Assembly: GCF_001570405.1 (NCBI RefSeq)
Contig: NZ_BBYM01000018.1
Span: 62,001 to 126,000, forward strand
Reading direction: 5' to 3'
Source of the DNA: Microtetraspora niveoalba
GTDB lineage: Bacteria > Actinomycetota > Actinomycetes > Streptosporangiales > Streptosporangiaceae
DNA: 64,000 bases
The notes under the pieces were generated by a model. The model was not told the origin of the DNA. It made no database searches and worked only from the letters and a program-made list of their open reading frames with translations. Of the stretch, positions 48,319 to 56,624 are shown in pieces. The stretch's first letter is position 1, and each line of letters starts with the position of its first letter. A program made the position numbers and the translations under genes.

Positions 48319-48921
48319 TCACTTCGCGGGCGCGGCCACGGCTCCGCCGACGAACGCGATGACGCTCTCCTCGGCGTCCGCCAGCGCGACCTCGCCGCCG
48401 ACGAGGGGGATGCGCTCCGCGCCGATGACGGCCAGGATGCTGCGGGCGGCGGCGTCCGTGTCGAGCCGGCGGAACTCCCCCGACTCCATGCCCCGGGCGA
48501 GGATCTCACACAGGATCTTGTGCATCGGCGCGACGTGGCCCGCGAGCGCCTGGTACGCGTCGGGGCCCAGCGCGGCGGTGATCTCGGCGGCACCCGGGTG
48601 GGGGTGCGCGAGAAGGCCCCTCAACTGGAGCCGGATGAAGGACTCCAGCCGCGCGTGGGCGGAGGCGTCCTCGGGCAGGTCCTGGTCGAACCGGTCCACG
48701 AAGTAGTCGGTCACCCGCCGGCTGAACTCGAGCAGCAGCGCGGCCTTGTCCGGGAAGTAGTTGTAGAGGACGGTGCGCGCGACGCCCGCCTCCGCGGCGA
48801 CGTCGGTCATGGAGATCGCGTCGATGCCTCGGTCCTTGGAGAGCGTGGCCACCGCGTCGATGATCCGGTTCACGGTCTGCGCACGGTGCTCGCGAAGGTT
48901 CGGGGCGGAAATCCTAGGCAT
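48319..48921 (-). CDS. TetR-family regulator, likely controller of the heme locus
   Basis: A 200-residue regulator with the helix-turn-helix ISMTDVAAEAGVARTVLYNY at about 37-56 and a helical ligand domain with several His residues (LLAHPHPGAAEI, LAGHVAPMHKILCE) that could bind heme or metal. It is divergent from the first heme oxygenase gene; the shared 282-nt gap contains a perfect dyad inside the heme oxygenase promoter. Similar dyads at the second heme oxygenase and VIT genes suggest a small regulon. The upstream 48064-48318 region contains only three imperfect CCGTCTTCAGAG repeats. Confidence 0.85.
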   Translation of the reverse strand: MPRISAPNLREHRAQTVNRIIDAVATLSKDRGIDAISMTDVAAEAGVARTVLYNYFPDKAALLLEFSRRVTDYFVDRFDQDLPEDASAHARLESFIRLQLRGLLAHPHPGAAEITAALGPDAYQALAGHVAPMHKILCEILARGMESGEFRRLDTDAAARSILAVIGAERIPLVGGEVALADAEESVIAFVGGAVAAPAK

Positions 48922-49141: not shown

Positions 49142-49170
49142 TTGTTTTAACGACAGTTTGTCGTTATCTT
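49142..49170 (+). promoter_or_regulatory. Heme oxygenase 1 promoter with an operator in its spacer
   Basis: TTGTTT (49142-49147) and TATCTT (49165-49170) are 17 nt apart. The spacer plus two bases of the -10 is a perfect dyad, TAACGACA-GTT-TGTCGTTA (49148-49166). A second, imperfect dyad (TTATGGC/GTCATAA, 49170-49188) follows. A protein on this dyad would directly block the polymerase. Confidence 0.75.
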
Positions 49171-49203
49171 TATGGCACGTCGTCATAAAACGGAGGACCA
49201 GGC

Positions 49204-49869
49204 GTGGACACCAACACCGCCCAGGAACGCGAGCCGCTGTCCAAGCTGCTCTATCACGGCACGTCCGAGGCCCACCGGGCCGCCGAGAACACCCCGTACA
49301 TGCTCGCCCTGTTCCAGGGCAGGCTGCCCAAGGACGCCTACGTCGCCTGGCTGGTCCGGTTCCACGCCGTGTACTCGGAGCTGGAGCGCACCACGGGCGC
49401 CCTGCGCGAGGACCCGGCCGTCGGCTCGCTCCACCTGCCCCAGCTCAACCGGACGGAGGCCATCGAACGCGACCTCGCGCACTTCAACGGCCCCGGCTGG
49501 CGGGACTCCCTGCGCACCTCCCCGGCCACCGACGCGTACGTGGCGCGGCTGCGCCGGGTCCGCGAGGAATGGCCGCTCGGCCTGGTCCCCCATCAGTGGA
49601 TCCGCTACGCCGGCTATCTGCACGGCGGGGCGACGCTGGCCAAGCTGCTCCGCACGACGTACGGGCTGAGCGACGGGGCCGGCCTGGCGTTCTACGACTT
49701 CACCGAGATCGAGGACAACCGCGCCTTCATCTCCGACTACCACGCCCGGATGAACGCGGTGCCCGTCGCCGCGCACGACATCGAGCCGCTGGTGGAGGAG
49801 GGCAACCACGCCTTCCGCGGCAACGCGGCGATCACGGTCGAGCTGGGCGAGGAGTTCGGCGTCTCCTGA
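49204..49869 (+). CDS. Heme oxygenase-like protein lacking the distal Asp
   Basis: A 221-residue helical protein of the heme oxygenase fold. The proximal His is present (SEAHRAAEN, His24). The distal helix, normally RYLGDLSGG, reads RYAGYLHGG (134-142), so the Asp that organises the active-site water is Tyr138 and the Ser is His140. In human HO-1, loss of that Asp turns the enzyme into a peroxidase-like form, so activity may differ. An acidic C-terminus follows. GGAGG lies 9 nt before the start. It is divergent from the TetR gene and convergent with the redox operon. Confidence 0.82.
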   Translation: MDTNTAQEREPLSKLLYHGTSEAHRAAENTPYMLALFQGRLPKDAYVAWLVRFHAVYSELERTTGALREDPAVGSLHLPQLNRTEAIERDLAHFNGPGWRDSLRTSPATDAYVARLRRVREEWPLGLVPHQWIRYAGYLHGGATLAKLLRTTYGLSDGAGLAFYDFTEIEDNRAFISDYHARMNAVPVAAHDIEPLVEEGNHAFRGNAAITVELGEEFGVS

Positions 49870-49887
49870 CCGCGCGGAACCCCGAAC

Positions 49888-49912
49888 GGCCGCCCCCCGA
49901 AGGAGGGCGGCC
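49888..49912. terminator. Bidirectional terminator hairpin
   Basis: GGCCGCCC pairs with GGGCGGCC around a 9-nt loop, followed by TTCGTC. It lies between the converging heme oxygenase 1 and ferredoxin gene ends. Confidence 0.6.
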
Positions 49913-49939
49913 TTCGTCATGCCGGTCCCGCGGCTCCCG

Positions 49940-50128
49940 TCACACCGTCCTGATCGCCTGCAGCGGGCACGCTTCGACGGCCGCGCGGGTGTTGGCCTCG
50001 GCCTCCGGCGTGACCTCGTCCACCAGGACCCTGCCGTAGCCCCACTCGTCCAGCGCGAACACCTCGGGGGCGAAGCGCTTGCAGTAACCCTTGCCGTCGC
50101 ACGCGGCGGCGTCGATCACGACCTTCAT
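49940..50128 (-). CDS. 3Fe-4S ferredoxin
   Basis: A 62-residue small ferredoxin with ACDGKGYC (Cys10, Cys16) and EACPLQAI (Cys54). Three Cys with the CX5C...CP arrangement bind a [3Fe-4S] cluster, as in ferredoxins that feed cytochromes P450. Its start overlaps the NuoF-like stop by 4 nt, and that gene overlaps heme oxygenase 2, so the three are one operon. It likely passes electrons from the flavoprotein to heme oxygenase. Confidence 0.92.
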   Translation of the reverse strand: MKVVIDAAACDGKGYCKRFAPEVFALDEWGYGRVLVDEVTPEAEANTRAAVEACPLQAIRTV

Positions 50129-51345
50129 CGTTCCTCCAGAGAGACGCGGAACCTCGTGTCCGCGGTGACAGGGAAGCCGGCACACCGCGCGCACGCCCCC
50201 TCGACGTGCGCGCGGACGGTGTCGCGGTGGTGCCGGAAGAGCGACCCGACCAGGACCGACACGGCGTCGGGCGTGGCGCAGTCGCCCCGCCCTGCCAGCG
50301 CCTCCCCCCACCGTTCGAGCTGCTCCACGTCGCCCGGCGTGGCGGCGCCGGCGGCCAGCCGGGCGAGCACGTCGGCCACACCGGCCGTGCCTTTGACGCA
50401 CGACCCGCACTGCCGGGCGTTCTCCCGGTCGAAGAAGGCCGCGACGTCGGCGGCCGCGCCGACCGGGCAGTCCCCGGCCAGCAGGACGAACGCGCCGCAG
50501 CCCAGTGTGCCGCCGGCCTCGGCGAACGCGGCGTGGGTGAGCGGCAGGCCGAGGGCCGCGGGAGGCAGCAGCCCGCCCGCGAAGCCGCCGGCGAGCACGC
50601 CCGTCACGCCGTCGGCGGTCCCCCGGTGGGCGGTGACGAGCTCGCGCAGCGGCACGCCGTACGGGACCTCGTAGAGGGCGGCGGGCGTGCCCGCGCCGGA
50701 CAGCGTCGCCAGGAAGGTGCCCGGCGACTCGGGCGTGCCGTACGCCCGGTAGGCGTCCGGCCCGAGCCGCACCGCGAGCGCGAGCTGGGCGAGCGTCTCA
50801 GCGTTGCTGACCAGGGTGGGCGCGCCACGCAGCCCCGCCTGCCAGGGGCGGGGCGGCTTCGCGGCGGGCAGCGCGGGTCCGCCGCCGACCGCGCGCACGA
50901 CCGCCGTCTCCTCCCCCGCCACGTACGCGGCGGGCGCCCGCACGATCTCGACGGTGTCACCGTCGCGGGCCTCGTCGAGGCGGTGGGCGGCGCGGGCGTC
51001 GCTGACGTACACGTACGCGCGGGCGGCCCCGACGGCCCGCGCGGCCAGGGTCAGGCCGCGCAGGACGAGGCCGGGACGCTCGCGCAGCAGGAAGCGGTCC
51101 TTGGCGGAGGCGGGCTCGCCCTCCTCGCCGTTGGCGATCACGTACCGGACGGGCTCCGCGGCCGCGGCGACCGAGCGCAGCTTGACGGCCAGCGGGAAAC
51201 CGGCGCCGCCGCGCCCCCGCACACCGGCGGCCGCGGCGATCTCGATGATCTCGGCGGCCGAGGGGCCGGGGGACGGCGGCCGCTCCGGATCGGGGCCGAG
51301 CAGGCGCGCGGCCCGCAGCGGGCGGGCCGGCAAGGGGAAACTCAT
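50125..51345 (-). CDS. NuoF-like NADH:ferredoxin oxidoreductase (51-kDa subunit homologue)
   Basis: A 406-residue flavoprotein related to the complex I NuoF subunit. It has the FMN/NADH motifs GVRGRGGAGFPLAVK (41-55), ANGEEGEPASAKDR (71-84) and YVAGEETAV, and an iron-sulfur region QCGSCVKGT. The canonical CxxCxxC is incomplete: Cys313 and Cys316 are present, the third position is Gly319, and the distant ligand Cys356 is kept. Two extra Cys are at 385 and 388. A stand-alone protein cannot be part of complex I; between a heme oxygenase and a ferredoxin it is best read as their NADH-dependent reductase. ATGA overlaps occur at both ends. Confidence 0.85.
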   Translation of the reverse strand: MSFPLPARPLRAARLLGPDPERPPSPGPSAAEIIEIAAAAGVRGRGGAGFPLAVKLRSVAAAAEPVRYVIANGEEGEPASAKDRFLLRERPGLVLRGLTLAARAVGAARAYVYVSDARAAHRLDEARDGDTVEIVRAPAAYVAGEETAVVRAVGGGPALPAAKPPRPWQAGLRGAPTLVSNAETLAQLALAVRLGPDAYRAYGTPESPGTFLATLSGAGTPAALYEVPYGVPLRELVTAHRGTADGVTGVLAGGFAGGLLPPAALGLPLTHAAFAEAGGTLGCGAFVLLAGDCPVGAAADVAAFFDRENARQCGSCVKGTAGVADVLARLAAGAATPGDVEQLERWGEALAGRGDCATPDAVSVLVGSLFRHHRDTVRAHVEGACARCAGFPVTADTRFRVSLEER

Positions 51346-51998
51346 GCCACCAGGTACTCGGGCAGCCGCTTGCCGATCTCGACGATGACCTCGGTGTTGA
51401 GCTGGTAGGCGAGCACGGTCTCGGAGACGATCCGCCTGGCCTCGACCTCGTCCGGGGCGAGCGCGTCGAGCCGGTCGCGGTAGGCGGCCTTGAACGCCTT
51501 GAGGTCCGGGATGCCGGAAAAGAGGTAGAACCGCGCGCCCGCCGCGTCGCCGAACCGGTACGCGCGCTCGGCGACCTTGCGGATCACCTGGCCGCCGGAG
51601 AGGTCGCCGAGATAGCGGGTGTAGTGGTGGGCGATGAACCCGCCCGGCCACTCGGCGATCTGGTTGATCCGGGCGACGTAGGTCAACGTGGGCTTGGACG
51701 GGGTGATCTCGTCGCGCCAGTTCTCCCCGTACAGCTCCTCCAGGTCGGCTTCCAAGGCGGGCACCCGCTCCAGCTCCGGCGTCACGAACGGACCGGCCAC
51801 CGGGTCGCCGGCGAGGGCCCGCCCCGCCTCCTCGAGCGCCACGTAGGCGAAGTAGTGCTGGGCCACCATCTCGGCGTACCCCTCCCGGGAGACGCGCCCG
51901 GCCATCAGCGCCTCAAGGAACGCGGTCTGCTCCGCCTCCTCGTGGTCGCGCCAGGTCGCCTTCTTGAGCCGCTCGGCGAAGGTCTCGGTTGCAGTCAT
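51342..51998 (-). CDS. Heme oxygenase (biliverdin-producing)
   Basis: A 218-residue canonical heme oxygenase. The proximal His19 is in TWRDHEEAEQTAF, and the distal helix YTRYLGDLSGGQVIRKV (GDLSGG 131-136, Asp132) is intact. It cleaves heme to biliverdin, CO and Fe2+ using O2 and electrons. The ATG at 51998 follows a ribosome site GGAGTCC. It heads an operon with the NuoF-like reductase and ferredoxin, under a promoter with the shared ACGACA dyad. Confidence 0.93.
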   Translation of the reverse strand: MTATETFAERLKKATWRDHEEAEQTAFLEALMAGRVSREGYAEMVAQHYFAYVALEEAGRALAGDPVAGPFVTPELERVPALEADLEELYGENWRDEITPSKPTLTYVARINQIAEWPGGFIAHHYTRYLGDLSGGQVIRKVAERAYRFGDAAGARFYLFSGIPDLKAFKAAYRDRLDALAPDEVEARRIVSETVLAYQLNTEVIVEIGKRLPEYLVA

Positions 51999-52028
51999 GC
52001 CAGGACTCCATTGCGTCGGGATGCCTTT

Positions 52029-52064
52029 TAACGACAGAGTGTCAGCAACGCCGATGAGGGTCAA
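52029..52064 (-). promoter_or_regulatory. Heme oxygenase 2 promoter and operator
   Basis: On the minus strand TTGACC (52064-52059) and CACTCT (52041-52036) are 17 nt apart. The dyad TAACGACA-GAG-TGTCAGCA (52029-52047), with an intact left half, overlaps the -10. It has the same left half as the site before heme oxygenase 1. Confidence 0.65.
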
Positions 52065-52069
52065 GACTT

Positions 52070-52088
52070 TTACGACACATCGTCATGA
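52070..52088. promoter_or_regulatory. Degenerate ACGACA dyad
   Basis: TTACGACA-CAT-CGTCATGA (within 52070-52088) matches the heme-locus dyad with a weaker right half. It lies between the divergent heme oxygenase 2 and permease operons. Confidence 0.45.
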
Positions 52089-52159
52089 ACGGCGGCGCAC
52101 GCCCGCAAGCACCGGCCCGACGCACGCGACACTCCGGACGGCAATCCATCGTTCGGATG

Positions 52160-52174
52160 ATGACGATCTGTCAT
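52160..52174. promoter_or_regulatory. ATGAC-N5-GTCAT dyad before the permease operon
   Basis: ATGAC and GTCAT form a perfect 5-bp inverted repeat followed by AAAAA, resembling the second site upstream of heme oxygenase 1 (GTCATAAAA). It is about 140 nt before the permease gene. The rest of 51999-52302 contains the sites listed and no gene. Confidence 0.4.
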
Positions 52175-52302
52175 AAAAACCCTTCACGGGGCGGAAACCG
52201 CGGCCTACCATTCCGGGCACGTATCCAGCATTCCGGACAGCGGAACACTGAGAGAGGTGGTTCGCCATCGTCTCGTATCTCCTCCGGCGTCTGATCTCAC
52301 TG

Positions 52303-53238
52303 GTGGCCACCGTCCTCGCGGTGATCTCGCTGGTGTTCGTCCTCCTCCGGTTGTCGCCGGGCAGCCCGCTCTACACCCTGCTCGGATTCAGCTACAGCGA
52401 GGAGGGCAGGGCCGCAGTCGCCGCGCGGCTCGGCCTCGACGCGTCCATTCCCGCGCAGTACGTCCGCTACCTGCGGCAGCTCGCCGGCGGGGACCTCGGG
52501 GCGTCCGTGTTCTCCGGCCAGCCGGTCGTGGAGCTCCTCGCCCAGCGGCTGCCCGTCTCCCTGGAGCTGGGCCTGGTCGCCGGAGCGGTCTGGATGGCGC
52601 TCGGCGTCGTCGCGGGAGCGCTCGCCGCGCTCCGGCACGGCTCCCCCCTCGACGGCCTCGTACGCGTCACGAGCGTGGTCGCGCTCTCGGTGCCGAGCTT
52701 CTGGCTGGGCCTCGTGTGCGTGCTGGTCTTCGGCGTCTACGTCACCGGGGTGCTGCCGGCCGGCGGGTTCGTCCCCCTGTCGGAGGACGCGGTCCTGCAC
52801 GTCCGCGGCCTGGTCCTGCCCGCGTTCGTGCTCGGCCTGCCGGCGTTCGCCGTCGTGGCCCGCACGTTCCGCGGGTCGGTCCTCGAGGTGCTCGACCGCG
52901 ACTACGTCGCGTTCGCCGCGGCGATGGGCATGCCGCGCCACAGGCTGCTGGCCAGGGTGGCGCTGCGCAACGCCGCGATCCCCCTGGTGACCGTCATGGG
53001 GCTGATGCTCGGCATGCTGGTCAGCGGCGCGATCCTGGTGGAGAACGTGTTCGGCGTGCCGGGCCTCGGCCAGTTGATGGTCGACTCCTTCCGCCGCCAG
53101 GACTATCCGGTCGCCGCGGGCTGCTGCCTGGCCGTGGCCGTCCTCTACCTCCTCACCAACCTGCTGGTGGACCTCGCCCAGCTCGCGATCGACCCGCGCG
53201 TACGGGAGACGGTGCTGAACGGGGGGCGGGCCCGATGA
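52303..53238 (+). CDS. ABC importer permease (DppB/OppB-like)
   Basis: A 311-residue permease with six membrane helices, a periplasmic loop after helix 1 (RLSPGSPLYTLLGF) and the EAA-type loop VLDRDYVAFAAAMGMPRHRL. The formal start is GTG 52303, but no ribosome site precedes it. The frame reads IVSYLLRRLISL before it, the usual DppB N-terminus, and AGAGAGG stands nine bases before the ATC at 52267, hinting at a non-standard start. It belongs to an importer with the next two genes; no ATPase gene is in this operon. Confidence 0.88.
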   Translation: MATVLAVISLVFVLLRLSPGSPLYTLLGFSYSEEGRAAVAARLGLDASIPAQYVRYLRQLAGGDLGASVFSGQPVVELLAQRLPVSLELGLVAGAVWMALGVVAGALAALRHGSPLDGLVRVTSVVALSVPSFWLGLVCVLVFGVYVTGVLPAGGFVPLSEDAVLHVRGLVLPAFVLGLPAFAVVARTFRGSVLEVLDRDYVAFAAAMGMPRHRLLARVALRNAAIPLVTVMGLMLGMLVSGAILVENVFGVPGLGQLMVDSFRRQDYPVAAGCCLAVAVLYLLTNLLVDLAQLAIDPRVRETVLNGGRAR

Positions 53239-54155
53239 GCGCCGCGCTCCCCGCCCCTCACCGAGCCCCCGGCCGTGCCCGCCGCCGTGCCCGGTTCCTC
53301 CCGCGCGACGGCCTGACCTGGTTCGGCGCCGCCTGCGCGGCGCTGTTCTGCCTGCTCGCGGTGCTCGGGCCGCTGCTGGCGGGCGATCCGAACGCCGCCG
53401 GGCCGGACGTGCTCGCCGCCCCGAGCGCCGCGCACCCGTTCGGCACCGACCAGCTCGGCCGCGACCTGCTCGCCCGTACGGCGGCGGGCACCCGGGTGTC
53501 GCTGACGGTGAGCCTGGCCGCCGTGGCGCTGGGCCTGCTGGCCGCCCTGCCGCTCGGCGTTCTCGCGGGCCATCACGGCGGCCGGTTCCTCGACGACCTG
53601 ATCATGCGGGTGCTGGAGATCGTCCAGGCGCTGCCGATGTTCGTGCTGGCGATGTTCGTCATCGGGCTCAGCGGCACGGAGACCGCGCACCTGGGGCCGA
53701 TCCCGGTCACCATGACGGCCAAGGTCGTGCTGCTGCTCGGAGCGGCGTTCGTCCCCTACTTCGCGCGGGTGGCGCGCGCCGAAACCATGGCGGAGACCGG
53801 CCAGGAGTACGTGGCCGCGCTGCGGGTGGTGGGCGTGCCCCGGATGCGGATCCTCTTCGGCGAGGTGCTGCCGAACATCGCGCCCGCCGTGGTCGTCCAG
53901 GCGTTCCTCGCGATGGCGCTGGCCGTCTTCGCCGAGGGCGGGCTGGGCTTCCTGGGGCTGGGCGTGCAGCTCCCGCAGGCCACGCTCGGCAACCTGACCG
54001 GCGGCGGCACCGGCTATCTGCCCGCGGGCGTCTGGTGGTACTCCGTCCTGCCCGGCGCGGTCATGCTCGCCGGGATCCTCGGCTTCAACCTGATCGGCGA
54101 CGCCCTGTCCGACACTCTCGGCGGACGCGGCGCGACCCACGTGGAGAAACGATGA
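53235..54155 (+). CDS. ABC importer permease (DppC/OppC-like)
   Basis: A 306-residue permease. HPFGTDQLGRDLLARTAAGTRV is the family signature after helix 1, and QEYVAALRVVGVPRMRILFG is the EAA loop. It overlaps the DppB-like gene (ATGA) and the binding-protein gene (ATGA). Peptide-type importers of this class also carry heme in several bacteria (for example, DppBCDF with DppA or HbpA), and the setting next to heme oxygenases suggests heme or a heme precursor as substrate. Confidence 0.92.
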   Translation: MSAALPAPHRAPGRARRRARFLPRDGLTWFGAACAALFCLLAVLGPLLAGDPNAAGPDVLAAPSAAHPFGTDQLGRDLLARTAAGTRVSLTVSLAAVALGLLAALPLGVLAGHHGGRFLDDLIMRVLEIVQALPMFVLAMFVIGLSGTETAHLGPIPVTMTAKVVLLLGAAFVPYFARVARAETMAETGQEYVAALRVVGVPRMRILFGEVLPNIAPAVVVQAFLAMALAVFAEGGLGFLGLGVQLPQATLGNLTGGGTGYLPAGVWWYSVLPGAVMLAGILGFNLIGDALSDTLGGRGATHVEKR

Positions 54156-55690
54156 CCCCTTCCCTTTCCTGGTCCCGGCGTCGGTTCCTCGGGCTGCTTC
54201 CGGCCGTGCCGCTGCTCGCCGCCTGCTCGACCGGCTCCCGGGCGGGCGGCGGCGAGACGCTCAGGATCGGCGTCGCCGCCGGCCCCGGCAACCTCAACCC
54301 GCTCGACTCCGGCAGCGAGGTCACCCGCTGGATCGCCGAGCCGGTGATGGAGACGCTGTACGACTACGACGAGCGGCTGCGGTCGGTGCCGCTACTCGCC
54401 GCGGACGAGCCGGCCGTCTCCGCCGACGGGCTCACCTGGACCGTACCGCTCAAGCGCGGCGTGACGTTCCACAACGGCGACGCCTTCACCGCCGAGCACG
54501 TGGCGGCCTCGCTCGACCACGTCGCCGCGTTCGCCGGCGGCAGCGAGTGGGTCGTCTACTTCCTCGGCTACTACTCCGGCGCCCGCGCGGTCGACCCGTA
54601 CACGGTCGAGATCAGGCTCAAGCGCCCGTACGGCCTGCTCCGGTCGCACCTGACCAACCTGCCGATCACGCATCGCGCCTTCGCCGACCGCAAGGACACC
54701 ATGATGGGCACCGGGCCGTACCGGCTGGAGCGGGTCTCGGCCGGGCTGGGCTACGGCATGACGGCCCACCCGGGATATCACGGCCCACCCCCGGCGTACG
54801 CGCGGATGGAGTTCCAGATCATCCCGGACGGCTCGACCCGGGCGGTGAGCCTGCGCGCGGGCACCGTCGACCTCGCCGTCGAGCTGCCCGTCGCGGCCCT
54901 GCCGCTGCTCGCGGACCGGCCCGAGGTGACCGTCCACCGGGTGGACGCGCCGATCGACATCCTCACCTACGTCAAGGCGGGGGACCCGCCGTTCGACGAC
55001 GTGGACTTCCGCCGCGCGGTGGCCTACGCGGCCGACCGCCAGGGGGTGAACGACAAGGTGTTCGGCGGCGCCGCCGCCCTCGGCCAGGGGCCCATCGGCC
55101 CGGCCGAACGGGGATACGACCCGGACCTGCGGGTCTTTCCCGCCAGGCCGGACCCGGCGCGGGCCCGCGAACTCCTGCGCGGCGTCGCGGACCCCGCCTT
55201 CACCCTGACGGTCAGCGCCGGGCAGGTCATGGAGGACATCGCGCAGATCCTGGCCCAGGGGTGGGCGCGGGCGGGCATCTCCGTGAAGCTGGAGGTCCTC
55301 CAGGGCGGCCCCTGGGCGCAGCGCTGGATCTCCGGCGCGTACCAGATGATCATGAACCGCTTCTCCAGCGGCTTCACCAGCGGTGACGCGAACTATCTCG
55401 CCCTCTCTCCCGCCCAGTCCCGGAGCGTCCTGGCCTGCGGGTACGAGAACCGGGCCGTGGACACCGCGCTCGACCGGGTGTGGACGACCGCCGACCAGGA
55501 CGAGCGCGACCGGCTGCTCCGCGAGGTGAACGCCACGCTGGCCGAGGACGCGGTGATGTTCCCTCCGGTCTATCCCAAGATGATCGTCGGGCAGCGCGCG
55601 GGCGTGAGCCCGCTGGATCCCGCGCGGATGCGGATCAGCAGGCTGGGCACGCCCCGGCTGCGCCCGGCCGGCGGAGGGAAGCGGGGATGA
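54152..55690 (+). CDS. ABC importer substrate-binding lipoprotein (family 5)
   Basis: A 512-residue SBP_bac_5 protein. Its Tat lipoprotein signal is SRRRFLGLLPAVPLLAAC (Cys25). The body includes LAADEPAVSADGLTWTVPLK and VTFHNGDAFTAEHVAASLDH, typical of DppA/OppA proteins, with MGTGPYRLERV. In the heme locus it may bind heme or a peptide-like ligand. It is the third gene of the operon by ATGA overlap. It converges with the neocarzinostatin-like gene. Confidence 0.92.
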   Translation: MTPSLSWSRRRFLGLLPAVPLLAACSTGSRAGGGETLRIGVAAGPGNLNPLDSGSEVTRWIAEPVMETLYDYDERLRSVPLLAADEPAVSADGLTWTVPLKRGVTFHNGDAFTAEHVAASLDHVAAFAGGSEWVVYFLGYYSGARAVDPYTVEIRLKRPYGLLRSHLTNLPITHRAFADRKDTMMGTGPYRLERVSAGLGYGMTAHPGYHGPPPAYARMEFQIIPDGSTRAVSLRAGTVDLAVELPVAALPLLADRPEVTVHRVDAPIDILTYVKAGDPPFDDVDFRRAVAYAADRQGVNDKVFGGAAALGQGPIGPAERGYDPDLRVFPARPDPARARELLRGVADPAFTLTVSAGQVMEDIAQILAQGWARAGISVKLEVLQGGPWAQRWISGAYQMIMNRFSSGFTSGDANYLALSPAQSRSVLACGYENRAVDTALDRVWTTADQDERDRLLREVNATLAEDAVMFPPVYPKMIVGQRAGVSPLDPARMRISRLGTPRLRPAGGGKRG

Positions 55691-55746
55691 CCGCCCGCCC
55701 GCCGGCGTCGTGTGCGGGCGCCCCGGGATCTCGCCCGCCCCCGTTT

Positions 55747-55766
55747 CCCCGGCCCGCGGGCCGGGG
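55747..55766. terminator. Palindromic hairpin between convergent genes
   Basis: A 20-nt perfect palindrome of CCCCGGCCCG and its mirror is followed by three ACGGGCC direct repeats (55769-55799). It separates the SBP and neocarzinostatin-like genes and may terminate both. Confidence 0.5.
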
Positions 55767-55814
55767 AGACGGGCCGAGGAAACGGGCCCGAGAAACGGGC
55801 CGGGCGCCGACGGG

Positions 55815-56471
55815 TCAGGAGTGCCGCCTGGCGCGGCGTCGTACGGCGAGGAGCGCGGCCACCCCGAGCACGAGGAGGACGACGGCGATGACCGCGACGA
55901 GGCCCGCGGAGAGACCGCCGGCCTCGTCCGGCGCGGCCGCCCCGGCGGAGGGGACGGCGGACGCCGCCGGGCCCTGCGCGGGTGTGGCGGGCGGGGCCGA
56001 ACCCGGCGCCGGCGTGGCGGGTGCGGCGAACGTGACGGCCAGCCGCGCGAAGTTGGCGGTGTCCCGGGGGTTGGCGGGGTCGTTCGTCATGAGAGCGCAG
56101 GTTGTCGCGGTGCAGTCGGTGGAGCCGAAGACGGCCTCCGGCGTCATCGTGGTCTCCAGCCCGCCGTCGGCGTCGGTGGTGACCCGGGCGAAGTTCCCCG
56201 TGTCGCACGCCTTCCCCGGAGGTTGCGCGGTGTCGCAGAGGGCGACGAACAGGATGGTCTTCGGCGTGAACCCCGATCCGGTGACCGTGATCTCGGCGCC
56301 GGACGTGAGGTCGGCGCTGCGGCTCGCGGTCAGCTCCGGCCCGTCCGGGACGGCGGCGGCCGCGCCGGGCGGCGGGACGGCGAGTATGGCGAGCGCGGCG
56401 GGAACCGCGAGCGCGAAGGGGACGGCGAGCGCCGTCCCGAGCCGGATGAGCGGTGAGCGGTTGCGGGGCAC
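55815..56471 (-). CDS. Membrane-anchored neocarzinostatin-like (Ig-fold) surface protein
   Basis: A 218-residue exported protein. The signal segment LAVPFALAVPAALAILAVPP is followed by an Ig-like domain (about 40-150) with ASRSADLTSGAEITVTGSGF and two disulfide pairs (LCDTAQPPGKAC; STDCTATTC). This is the pattern of neocarzinostatin/macromomycin apoproteins. An Ala/Pro spacer, one membrane helix (GLVAVIAVVLLVLGVAALLA) and an RRRARR tail anchor it. NFAR occurs twice. GTG is the start, with AGGGAGG before it. Placed in the heme locus, it may bind heme or a related ligand at the surface; that role is inference only. Confidence 0.75.
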   Translation of the reverse strand: MPRNRSPLIRLGTALAVPFALAVPAALAILAVPPPGAAAAVPDGPELTASRSADLTSGAEITVTGSGFTPKTILFVALCDTAQPPGKACDTGNFARVTTDADGGLETTMTPEAVFGSTDCTATTCALMTNDPANPRDTANFARLAVTFAAPATPAPGSAPPATPAQGPAASAVPSAGAAAPDEAGGLSAGLVAVIAVVLLVLGVAALLAVRRRARRHS

Positions 56472-56533
56472 GGTGCCTCCCTGAGTGATCCGAAACGACC
56501 CCGATCGAGCCCCCGATGCCTTGCGGAACACTG

Positions 56534-56556
56534 TTTCACGACATAGTGTCGTAAAA
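56534..56556. promoter_or_regulatory. ACGACA dyad before the VIT transporter gene
   Basis: ACGACA-TAG-TGTCGT (56538-56552) is perfect, with TTT/AAA flanks. It lies between the divergent neocarzinostatin-like and VIT genes. It is the second-best copy of the heme-locus dyad. Confidence 0.7.
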
Positions 56557-56624
56557 CAAGACCGTGCGAACCCCCCGATTTCCCGACCTGTCCTCGCTGG
56601 TCACGGCAGGCGGAAAGGATGCAT

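Follow-up and report, generated by a model that had tools for sequence, protein, structure and literature searches.

A predicted TetR-family regulator of heme degradation and its putative paired dyad operators in Microtetraspora niveoalba and other Streptosporangiaceae

The closest known systems are the TetR-family heme sensors HrtR (Lactococcus lactis), HatR, and FhtR, whose 15-nt palindromic operator is released on heme binding (PMC12839281; PMC12670364); FhtR acts through a pair of palindromes lying in the -10/-35 region (PMC7858072), and all three control heme efflux (PMC11442138). Heme oxygenase (HO) itself is under heme- and iron-dependent control in Corynebacterium glutamicum, where hmuO answers to HrrSA and DtxR (PMC7337898), and deletion of PfsR, a TetR-family protein of iron homeostasis in Synechocystis, changes HO expression (PMC4092027). 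We describe here a heme locus of the soil actinobacterium Microtetraspora niveoalba (genome of 8.47 Mb), contained in a 64-kb stretch of its DNA (G000:C18:62001-126000, hereafter “the window”, with positions counted from its first letter), where a TetR-family regulator lies next to a set of dyads with the core GACA-N3-TGTC, placed before two HO genes (HO1 and HO2) and a gene of the vacuolar iron transporter type (VIT).

The locus resembles HrtR in combining a one-component TetR with a palindrome of about 15 nt, here the GACA-N3-TGTC core of a predicted operator, at the target promoter, and FhtR in having two palindromes in the -10/-35 region, as paired dyads; it differs from HrtR, HatR, and FhtR in its predicted targets, which are heme degradation and an iron transporter instead of heme efflux. 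As with C. glutamicum hmuO, a heme oxygenase would be under heme/iron-type control in an actinobacterium, but a two-component system and an iron repressor do there what a single TetR would do here. PfsR, similar in that a TetR regulator affects HO expression, was rejected as a matching system because, in the reported gel shifts, it bound its own promoter only and neither ho1 nor ho2 (PMC4092027); PA3973 was dropped as a precedent, HemO being merely named in a table. Among the literature matches listed, no title deals with a TetR controlling HO in these actinobacteria, and “heme oxygenase” with “Nonomuraea” gave no match, most subscription journals lying outside both searches. What we report is a new TetR subfamily and predicted regulon of a known kind, heme genes being already under one-component TetR proteins such as HrtR elsewhere.

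The locus reads, in order, TetR (48319-48921, - strand), HO1 (49204-49869, +; PF01126, 1.7e-47), a row made of HO2 (51342-51998, -; PF01126, 1.6e-58), a NuoF-like gene, and a ferredoxin gene (all -), two ABC permeases and a family-5 binding protein (+), a neocarzinostatin-like gene (-), and VIT (56619-57344, +; PF01988, 2.3e-68). The original prediction, made from the letters of the window, had pointed to six dyads, and all six are indeed present: the perfect TAACGACA-GTT-TGTCGTTA at 49148-49166 in the promoter spacer of HO1 (dyad 49146-49168, core 49150-49164); ACGACAGAGTGTCAG at 52031-52045 before HO2 (dyad 52027-52049), overlapping the likely -10 region; the perfect ACGACA-TAG-TGTCGT at 56538-56552 before VIT (dyad 56534-56556); and three degenerate copies, with cores at 49172-49186 (dyad 49168-49190, the second of HO1), 52072-52086 (dyad 52068-52090, the second of HO2), and 52160-52174 (dyad 52156-52178, before the ABC transporter genes).

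We then scanned the window with a 23-bp matrix built from 110 sites of loci L050-L126, which belong to other genera and include no Microtetraspora and no window sequence; training sites had to have the exact core and at least three flanking T/A, which favours strong sites. The same six dyads come out as the top six, with 37.2 (VIT), 31.3 (HO2, over the -10), 29.9 (HO1, spacer), 26.5 (HO2, upstream), 25.3 (ABC transporter), and 16.5 bits (HO1, second), and the seventh-ranked site reaches just 2.4 bits. Because a matrix from outside loci ranks exactly these first, the six dyads are confirmed as real. Simple counting is of less help. Of the perfect ACGACA-N3-TGTCGT 15-mer the genome has three copies, against one of the reversed control; two are within the window, and the third (C8:194589) was rejected as a target, since it lies inside an 870-aa open reading frame (ORF), which we take, by eye only, to be an FbiC-type radical SAM protein. 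Dyad copies with at most three mismatches number 35 in the window against 25.0 +/- 5.0 expected (4 of 100 shuffles reach 35), and those with at most two mismatches 443 in the whole genome against 383 for the control; mismatched copies, unconvincing alone, were thus not counted as evidence.

What ties the dyads to the adjacent TetR is how the two co-occur. We took as the family the 297 Streptosporangiaceae genomes, of which 153 have a TetR ortholog match at E<=1e-20 (TetR+), a set that takes in low-identity matches such as G068, G173, G208, G258, G264, and G278. The named loci are the best 80 of the 303 TetR matches, and among these the closest relatives of the window TetR come from Microtetraspora species (91, 88, and 85% identity). 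One or two HO genes are present in 73 of the 80 named loci, giving 78 HO promoters; upstream stretches shorter than 150 bp were to be skipped, and a count by hand found none to skip. GACA-N3-TGTC lies at most 300 bp upstream of 77 of these 78 HO genes within 8 kb of a TetR ortholog, and in the remaining promoter, that of L113, two sites with one mismatch each (27.1 and 24.8 bits) stand at a distance of 43 bp. As a control, we used 80 of the 144 family genomes without the TetR (TetR-), chosen mainly for completeness, of which 17 carry HO: none of their 18 promoters has the core (Fisher, 1e-18), a value that, like the other Fisher value given below, overstates independence, 40 of the 80 named loci being Nonomuraea and the 17 control genomes coming from 5 genera. 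The perfect core spans 15 named genera, and a class-wide search found it in all ten family loci, besides the window, with a whole HO beside the TetR (L248, L250-L252, L254-L259), some of which may belong to species already represented among the named loci. Outside the HO promoters of the named loci, the core is rare: 1.226 Mb of sequence holds 11 sites, or 0.003 per 300 bp.

The extended dyad TTTNRYGACANNNTGTCRYNAAA, with at most one mismatch, is found in 67 of the 297 genomes (reversed pattern, 2/297), and 65 of the 67 carry the TetR; comparing the lists by hand, this makes 65/153 TetR+ genomes versus 2/144 TetR- ones (G260 and G092). Taken together, these counts strongly support the prediction that the dyads are the shared operator of the adjacent TetR. 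M. fusca (G118; L047 / L214) keeps the TetR at 91% identity and shows no PF01126 match, no extended dyad at one mismatch or fewer, and no site above 5 bits in the 14 kb around the TetR. Outside the family, we found eight distant TetR homologs (E 1e-31 to 1e-38), of which three are beside HO and one (L263) beside an HtaA-domain gene (2e-10); the perfect core is present in three of the eight loci.

The placement of the dyads, with promoter elements assigned by eye, is that expected of a repressor, as originally proposed, and the cover over the -35/-10 elements is kept across HO promoters. A second site (at most one core mismatch) lies 15-60 bp away in 71 of the 77 core-bearing HO promoters. The spacing is exactly 44 bp in 57 of them, where TTGAC, the -35, occupies one fixed position between the dyads (57/57) and the downstream dyad lies over the stretch where the -10 is expected. 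HO2 of the window follows the same two-dyad plan at 41-bp spacing, its -35 (TTGACC, 52059-52064, -) standing between the two dyads. HO1 has a different plan (promoter 49142-49170, +): TTGTTT at 49142-49147, a 17-bp spacer filled by the first dyad, TATCTT at 49165-49170, and the second dyad, centred 22 bp downstream of the first; the first part of this plan is also found before HO1 in L048, L049, L050, L051, and L066, and L051 has a perfect second core at the same 22-bp spacing. Both plans would set the protein on the polymerase site, as a repressor needs. One has to keep in mind that the HO2 dyad at 52068-52090, just upstream of the -35, is in an activator-like place, and that the TetR could in principle be a heme-dependent activator; we find this exceedingly improbable, since the second dyad over the -10 of the 57 paired promoters and the spacer-filling dyad of HO1 would block polymerase. 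Beyond one complete two-dyad promoter with 44-bp spacing, in G179 (L236:2687-2750), lies an IS4-type transposase ORF, and no HO was seen nearby; this promoter is perhaps an orphan from a heme oxygenase gene.

The HO promoters of the two groups of genomes also differ in their iron box. With at most 4/19 mismatches, the DtxR/IdeR box, of consensus TTAGGTTAGCCTAACCTAA (PMC7762939), is found in 11 of the 18 HO promoters of TetR- genomes versus 1 of the 78 near the TetR (L110; Fisher, 4e-9); the box is absent from 77 of these 78 even at 6/19 mismatches. The TetR dyad and the iron box are, thus, nearly exclusive. In the window, the best match to the box (+ strand) has 8/19 mismatches, the HO1 and HO2 promoter regions 10/19, and the VIT one 9/19. 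Control of HO, therefore, appears from these promoter sequences to have been swapped from iron to the TetR. Possible intermediates carry both kinds of site: in addition to L110, three loci of the distant homologs may do so. In L264, a perfect dyad core is accompanied by iron boxes of 4 and 5 mismatches, the gene downstream encoding a TIG domain and not HO; near HO, L262 combines a weak box (6 mismatches) with a perfect core, and L267 one of the same quality with a 19.7-bit dyad. In our reading, made on small numbers and without trees, an ancestral dual control would have been resolved to TetR-only control in the family.

Beyond HO, VIT is the predicted second target of the TetR system. The dyad precedes five VIT genes, those of the window, L210 (G203), L211 (G061), L212 (G096), and Nonomuraea G226, and in the latter the dyad-bearing VIT is on contig C2, the TetR being on C10; none of 18 full-length VIT paralogs in ten genomes has it, six weak or partial matches (L204-L209) having been left out of this check. 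In the window, the VIT dyad overlaps a promoter-like TTGCGG (56521-56526) - 17 bp - TAGTGT (56544-56549) and is common to VIT and the divergent neocarzinostatin-like gene (55815-56471, -; PF00960, 1.9e-12); a neocarzinostatin-fold gene adjoins VIT in L210, L211, and L212 as well. M. glauca (G096) carries the locus in two parts, TetR-HO1-ferredoxin-NuoF-HO2 on C15 and, on C19, the ABC genes and VIT together with a second HO2; the dyads accompany the genes in both parts. A core-imperfect dyad of 27.1 bits also precedes a DUF2470 gene in G235, DUF2470 being described as a dimeric heme-binding domain (PMC11014987).

The ABC transporter genes (52267-55690, +; BPD_transp_1, SBP_bac_5), of the peptide/nickel type with two permeases and a family-5 solute-binding protein, are a weak candidate target. 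Their dyad (52160-52174) is present in all three Microtetraspora loci that have the region (the window, L048, L212), and we downgraded them from firm target on account of three further heme loci of the same gene order (L050, L051, and L066; read by eye), where the dyad is absent and a different palindrome, CATCGTTCGGATGATG or alike, is conserved. This is where the original prediction of one operator shared across the heme locus has its limit: it is strongly supported for the HO promoters (77/78 versus 0/18), but the ABC transporter copy was seen in Microtetraspora only. The separate palindrome CATCGTTCGGATGATG lies at 52147-52162 before the ABC permease, with a similar element in L048, L050, L051, L066, and L212, and is probably the site of another regulator. 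The first permease has an apparent ATC start codon (52267) behind a strong ribosome site, GAGAGAGGTGG (stretch 52249-52303), and no ATG/GTG/TTG in frame before 52303; the ribosome-site stretch is identical in L048 and L212.

A few dyads are found in a different setting. Those at G260:C56:162605 and G000:C7:157728 precede an MFS transporter gene followed by its own TetR, and the one at G156:C1:6163461 appears to have the same arrangement, by ORF layout alone. Two more dyads are located at G025:C15:83147 and G054:C14:93393. In L240 (3029-3051 and 4778-5365), a second TetR (P0001) lies behind an MFS gene and has the N-terminal arm MPKISA..HRA in common with the heme-locus TetR, and a GCGAC..TGTCGC dyad of 13.3 bits is found near the start of the MFS gene. 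There is possibly a wider TetR group predicted to read a GACA-N3-TGTC-like core. The shared arm and similar dyad core of P0001 could also be taken to mean that a different regulator of more global reach uses the dyads, the heme-locus TetR being a bystander; we judge this very unlikely, given that the extended dyad is found in only 2 of 144 TetR- genomes against 65 of 153 TetR+ ones, that one of those two (G260) is of the MFS-TetR type, and that the HO promoters of the 17 TetR- genomes are without the core.

We now turn to the protein that would read these operators. The window TetR belongs to the TetR/AcrR family, with a TetR_N helix-turn-helix (PF00440, 1.6e-12), an all-helical C-terminal domain (TetR_C_27, PF17935, 4.7e-8), and an AlphaFold model made of helices throughout (pLDDT 85); its ORF is open to 48948, with the conserved start MPRISA at 48921. 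The best structural matches listed are TetR proteins with Z 16.0-18.6 and no standout (top, 2g3b, Z 18.6, root-mean-square deviation 3.1, 181 aligned), and, of the 19 NCBIfam equivalog families matched, none is above its curated cut-off (best, KstR, 51.2 bits vs 280). Residues H12, H106, H108, Y123, and H129 are among those invariant in all 81 orthologs, and the eight distant homologs all have a histidine aligned with H129, plus another in the column between 106 and 108. Irr has a known HXH motif that binds heme (PMC7762939).

Two things make heme the likeliest inducer: the invariance of His106-x-His108 and His129, and the genes that the locus contains (HO, a ferredoxin/NADH electron source, an iron transporter). 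Its main rival is biliverdin or iron: with the same TetR and operators, the inducer would be a product of the pathway (biliverdin, carbon monoxide, ferrous iron) or another porphyrin. Intermediates of a pathway are often bound in TetR pockets, the conserved histidines could bind metal as well as heme, and VIT among the targets would fit iron sensing. We nevertheless hold a product inducer to be rather unlikely, because induction by the product of HO would need basal HO activity, and four of the eight distant-homolog loci are beside HO or the gene with the HtaA domain, a domain known from heme receptors. The pairing of HO with VIT also fits heme excess better than iron hunger.

The heme ligands of HrtR are H72 and H149, to be set against the invariant histidines 106, 108, and 129 here, compared without alignment to HrtR; its DNA contacts are R46 and Y50 (PMC12839281), four apart as are R49 and Y53 here, conserved in at least 97% of the 81 orthologs, a likeness of spacing only, without sequence alignment. 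HrtR was not recognised among the 50 structural matches listed, which excludes nothing. No heme efflux pump of the HrtBA type, which HrtR controls, is found among the 10 window proteins scanned, and the dyad genes examined are HO, VIT, and DUF2470, no genome-wide HrtBA search having been made. The TetR here may work like HrtR but on degradation; we do not claim membership of the HrtR group, since the targets seen include none of the HrtBA type and the ligand site is predicted only. The HrtR operator is presumably ATGACACAGTGTCAT, which is nearly the dyad consensus here; the Microtetraspora operator may, then, be in essence the lactococcal one, whether it arose independently or was inherited from an ancestor of both.

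Several points weigh against the interpretation of the dyads as operators of a dedicated heme-responsive TetR. The near-perfect extended dyad is absent in 88 of the 153 TetR+ genomes, the core being conserved and the flanks varying, and the promoters are not independent, with half of the named loci in Nonomuraea. In seven of the 80 loci, some of them truncated by the end of a contig, no HO was seen near the TetR, nor any site scoring more than 5 bits; the TetR is, thus, not obviously controlling its own promoter. Five of the eight distant homologs are without a perfect core, and L267, beside HO, has only its imperfect site. A similar core is usable by other TetRs, such as that of the MFS-TetR pair with GCGAC..TGTCGC. 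As for heme, its proposal as the ligand is drawn from conserved histidines only.

With these points in mind, we still regard it as fairly probable that the TetR at 48319-48921 is a dedicated heme-degradation repressor released by heme. Ligand-free dimers would bind the GACA-N3-TGTC dyads over the -35/-10 elements and keep HO1, HO2 (with the NuoF-like reductase and ferredoxin), and VIT shut; excess cytoplasmic heme, probably held by His106-x-His108 and His129, would release the TetR; HO would then open heme with electrons supplied via the NuoF-like protein and the ferredoxin; and VIT would remove the freed iron. The presumed electron donor is the NuoF-like FMN (flavin mononucleotide)/4Fe-4S NADH dehydrogenase subunit (50125-51345, -; Complex1_51K, 7.6e-35; NADH_4Fe-4S, 1.7e-16), and the 4Fe-4S ferredoxin (49940-50128, -; Fer4_15, 2e-12) comes last in the HO2 row, which resembles a dedicated NADH-to-heme-oxygenase electron chain. 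The row of HO2, NuoF-like flavoprotein, and 4Fe-4S ferredoxin (49940-51998) is also found in L048, L049, L050, L051, and L066.

More tentatively, and with a little less than even confidence, we suggest that the swap extends to the whole clade: in Streptosporangiaceae and relatives, HO may have left its iron-starvation regulation by DtxR/IdeR and passed to a new TetR subfamily that senses heme and acts at a two-dyad sandwich promoter, a change that would have turned an iron-scavenging enzyme into one of heme detoxification coupled to iron removal by VIT. The finding gives a large actinobacterial group a testable regulator of heme breakdown, and HO promoters appear to have exchanged an iron box for a TetR operator. 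A TetR with such a compact paired operator could also find use as a heme-sensing part in high-GC hosts, and the likeness to the lactococcal operator, if verified, would be striking. The old question of whether a heme oxygenase in bacteria is there to supply iron or to detoxify heme could now receive a first answer from promoter sequence.

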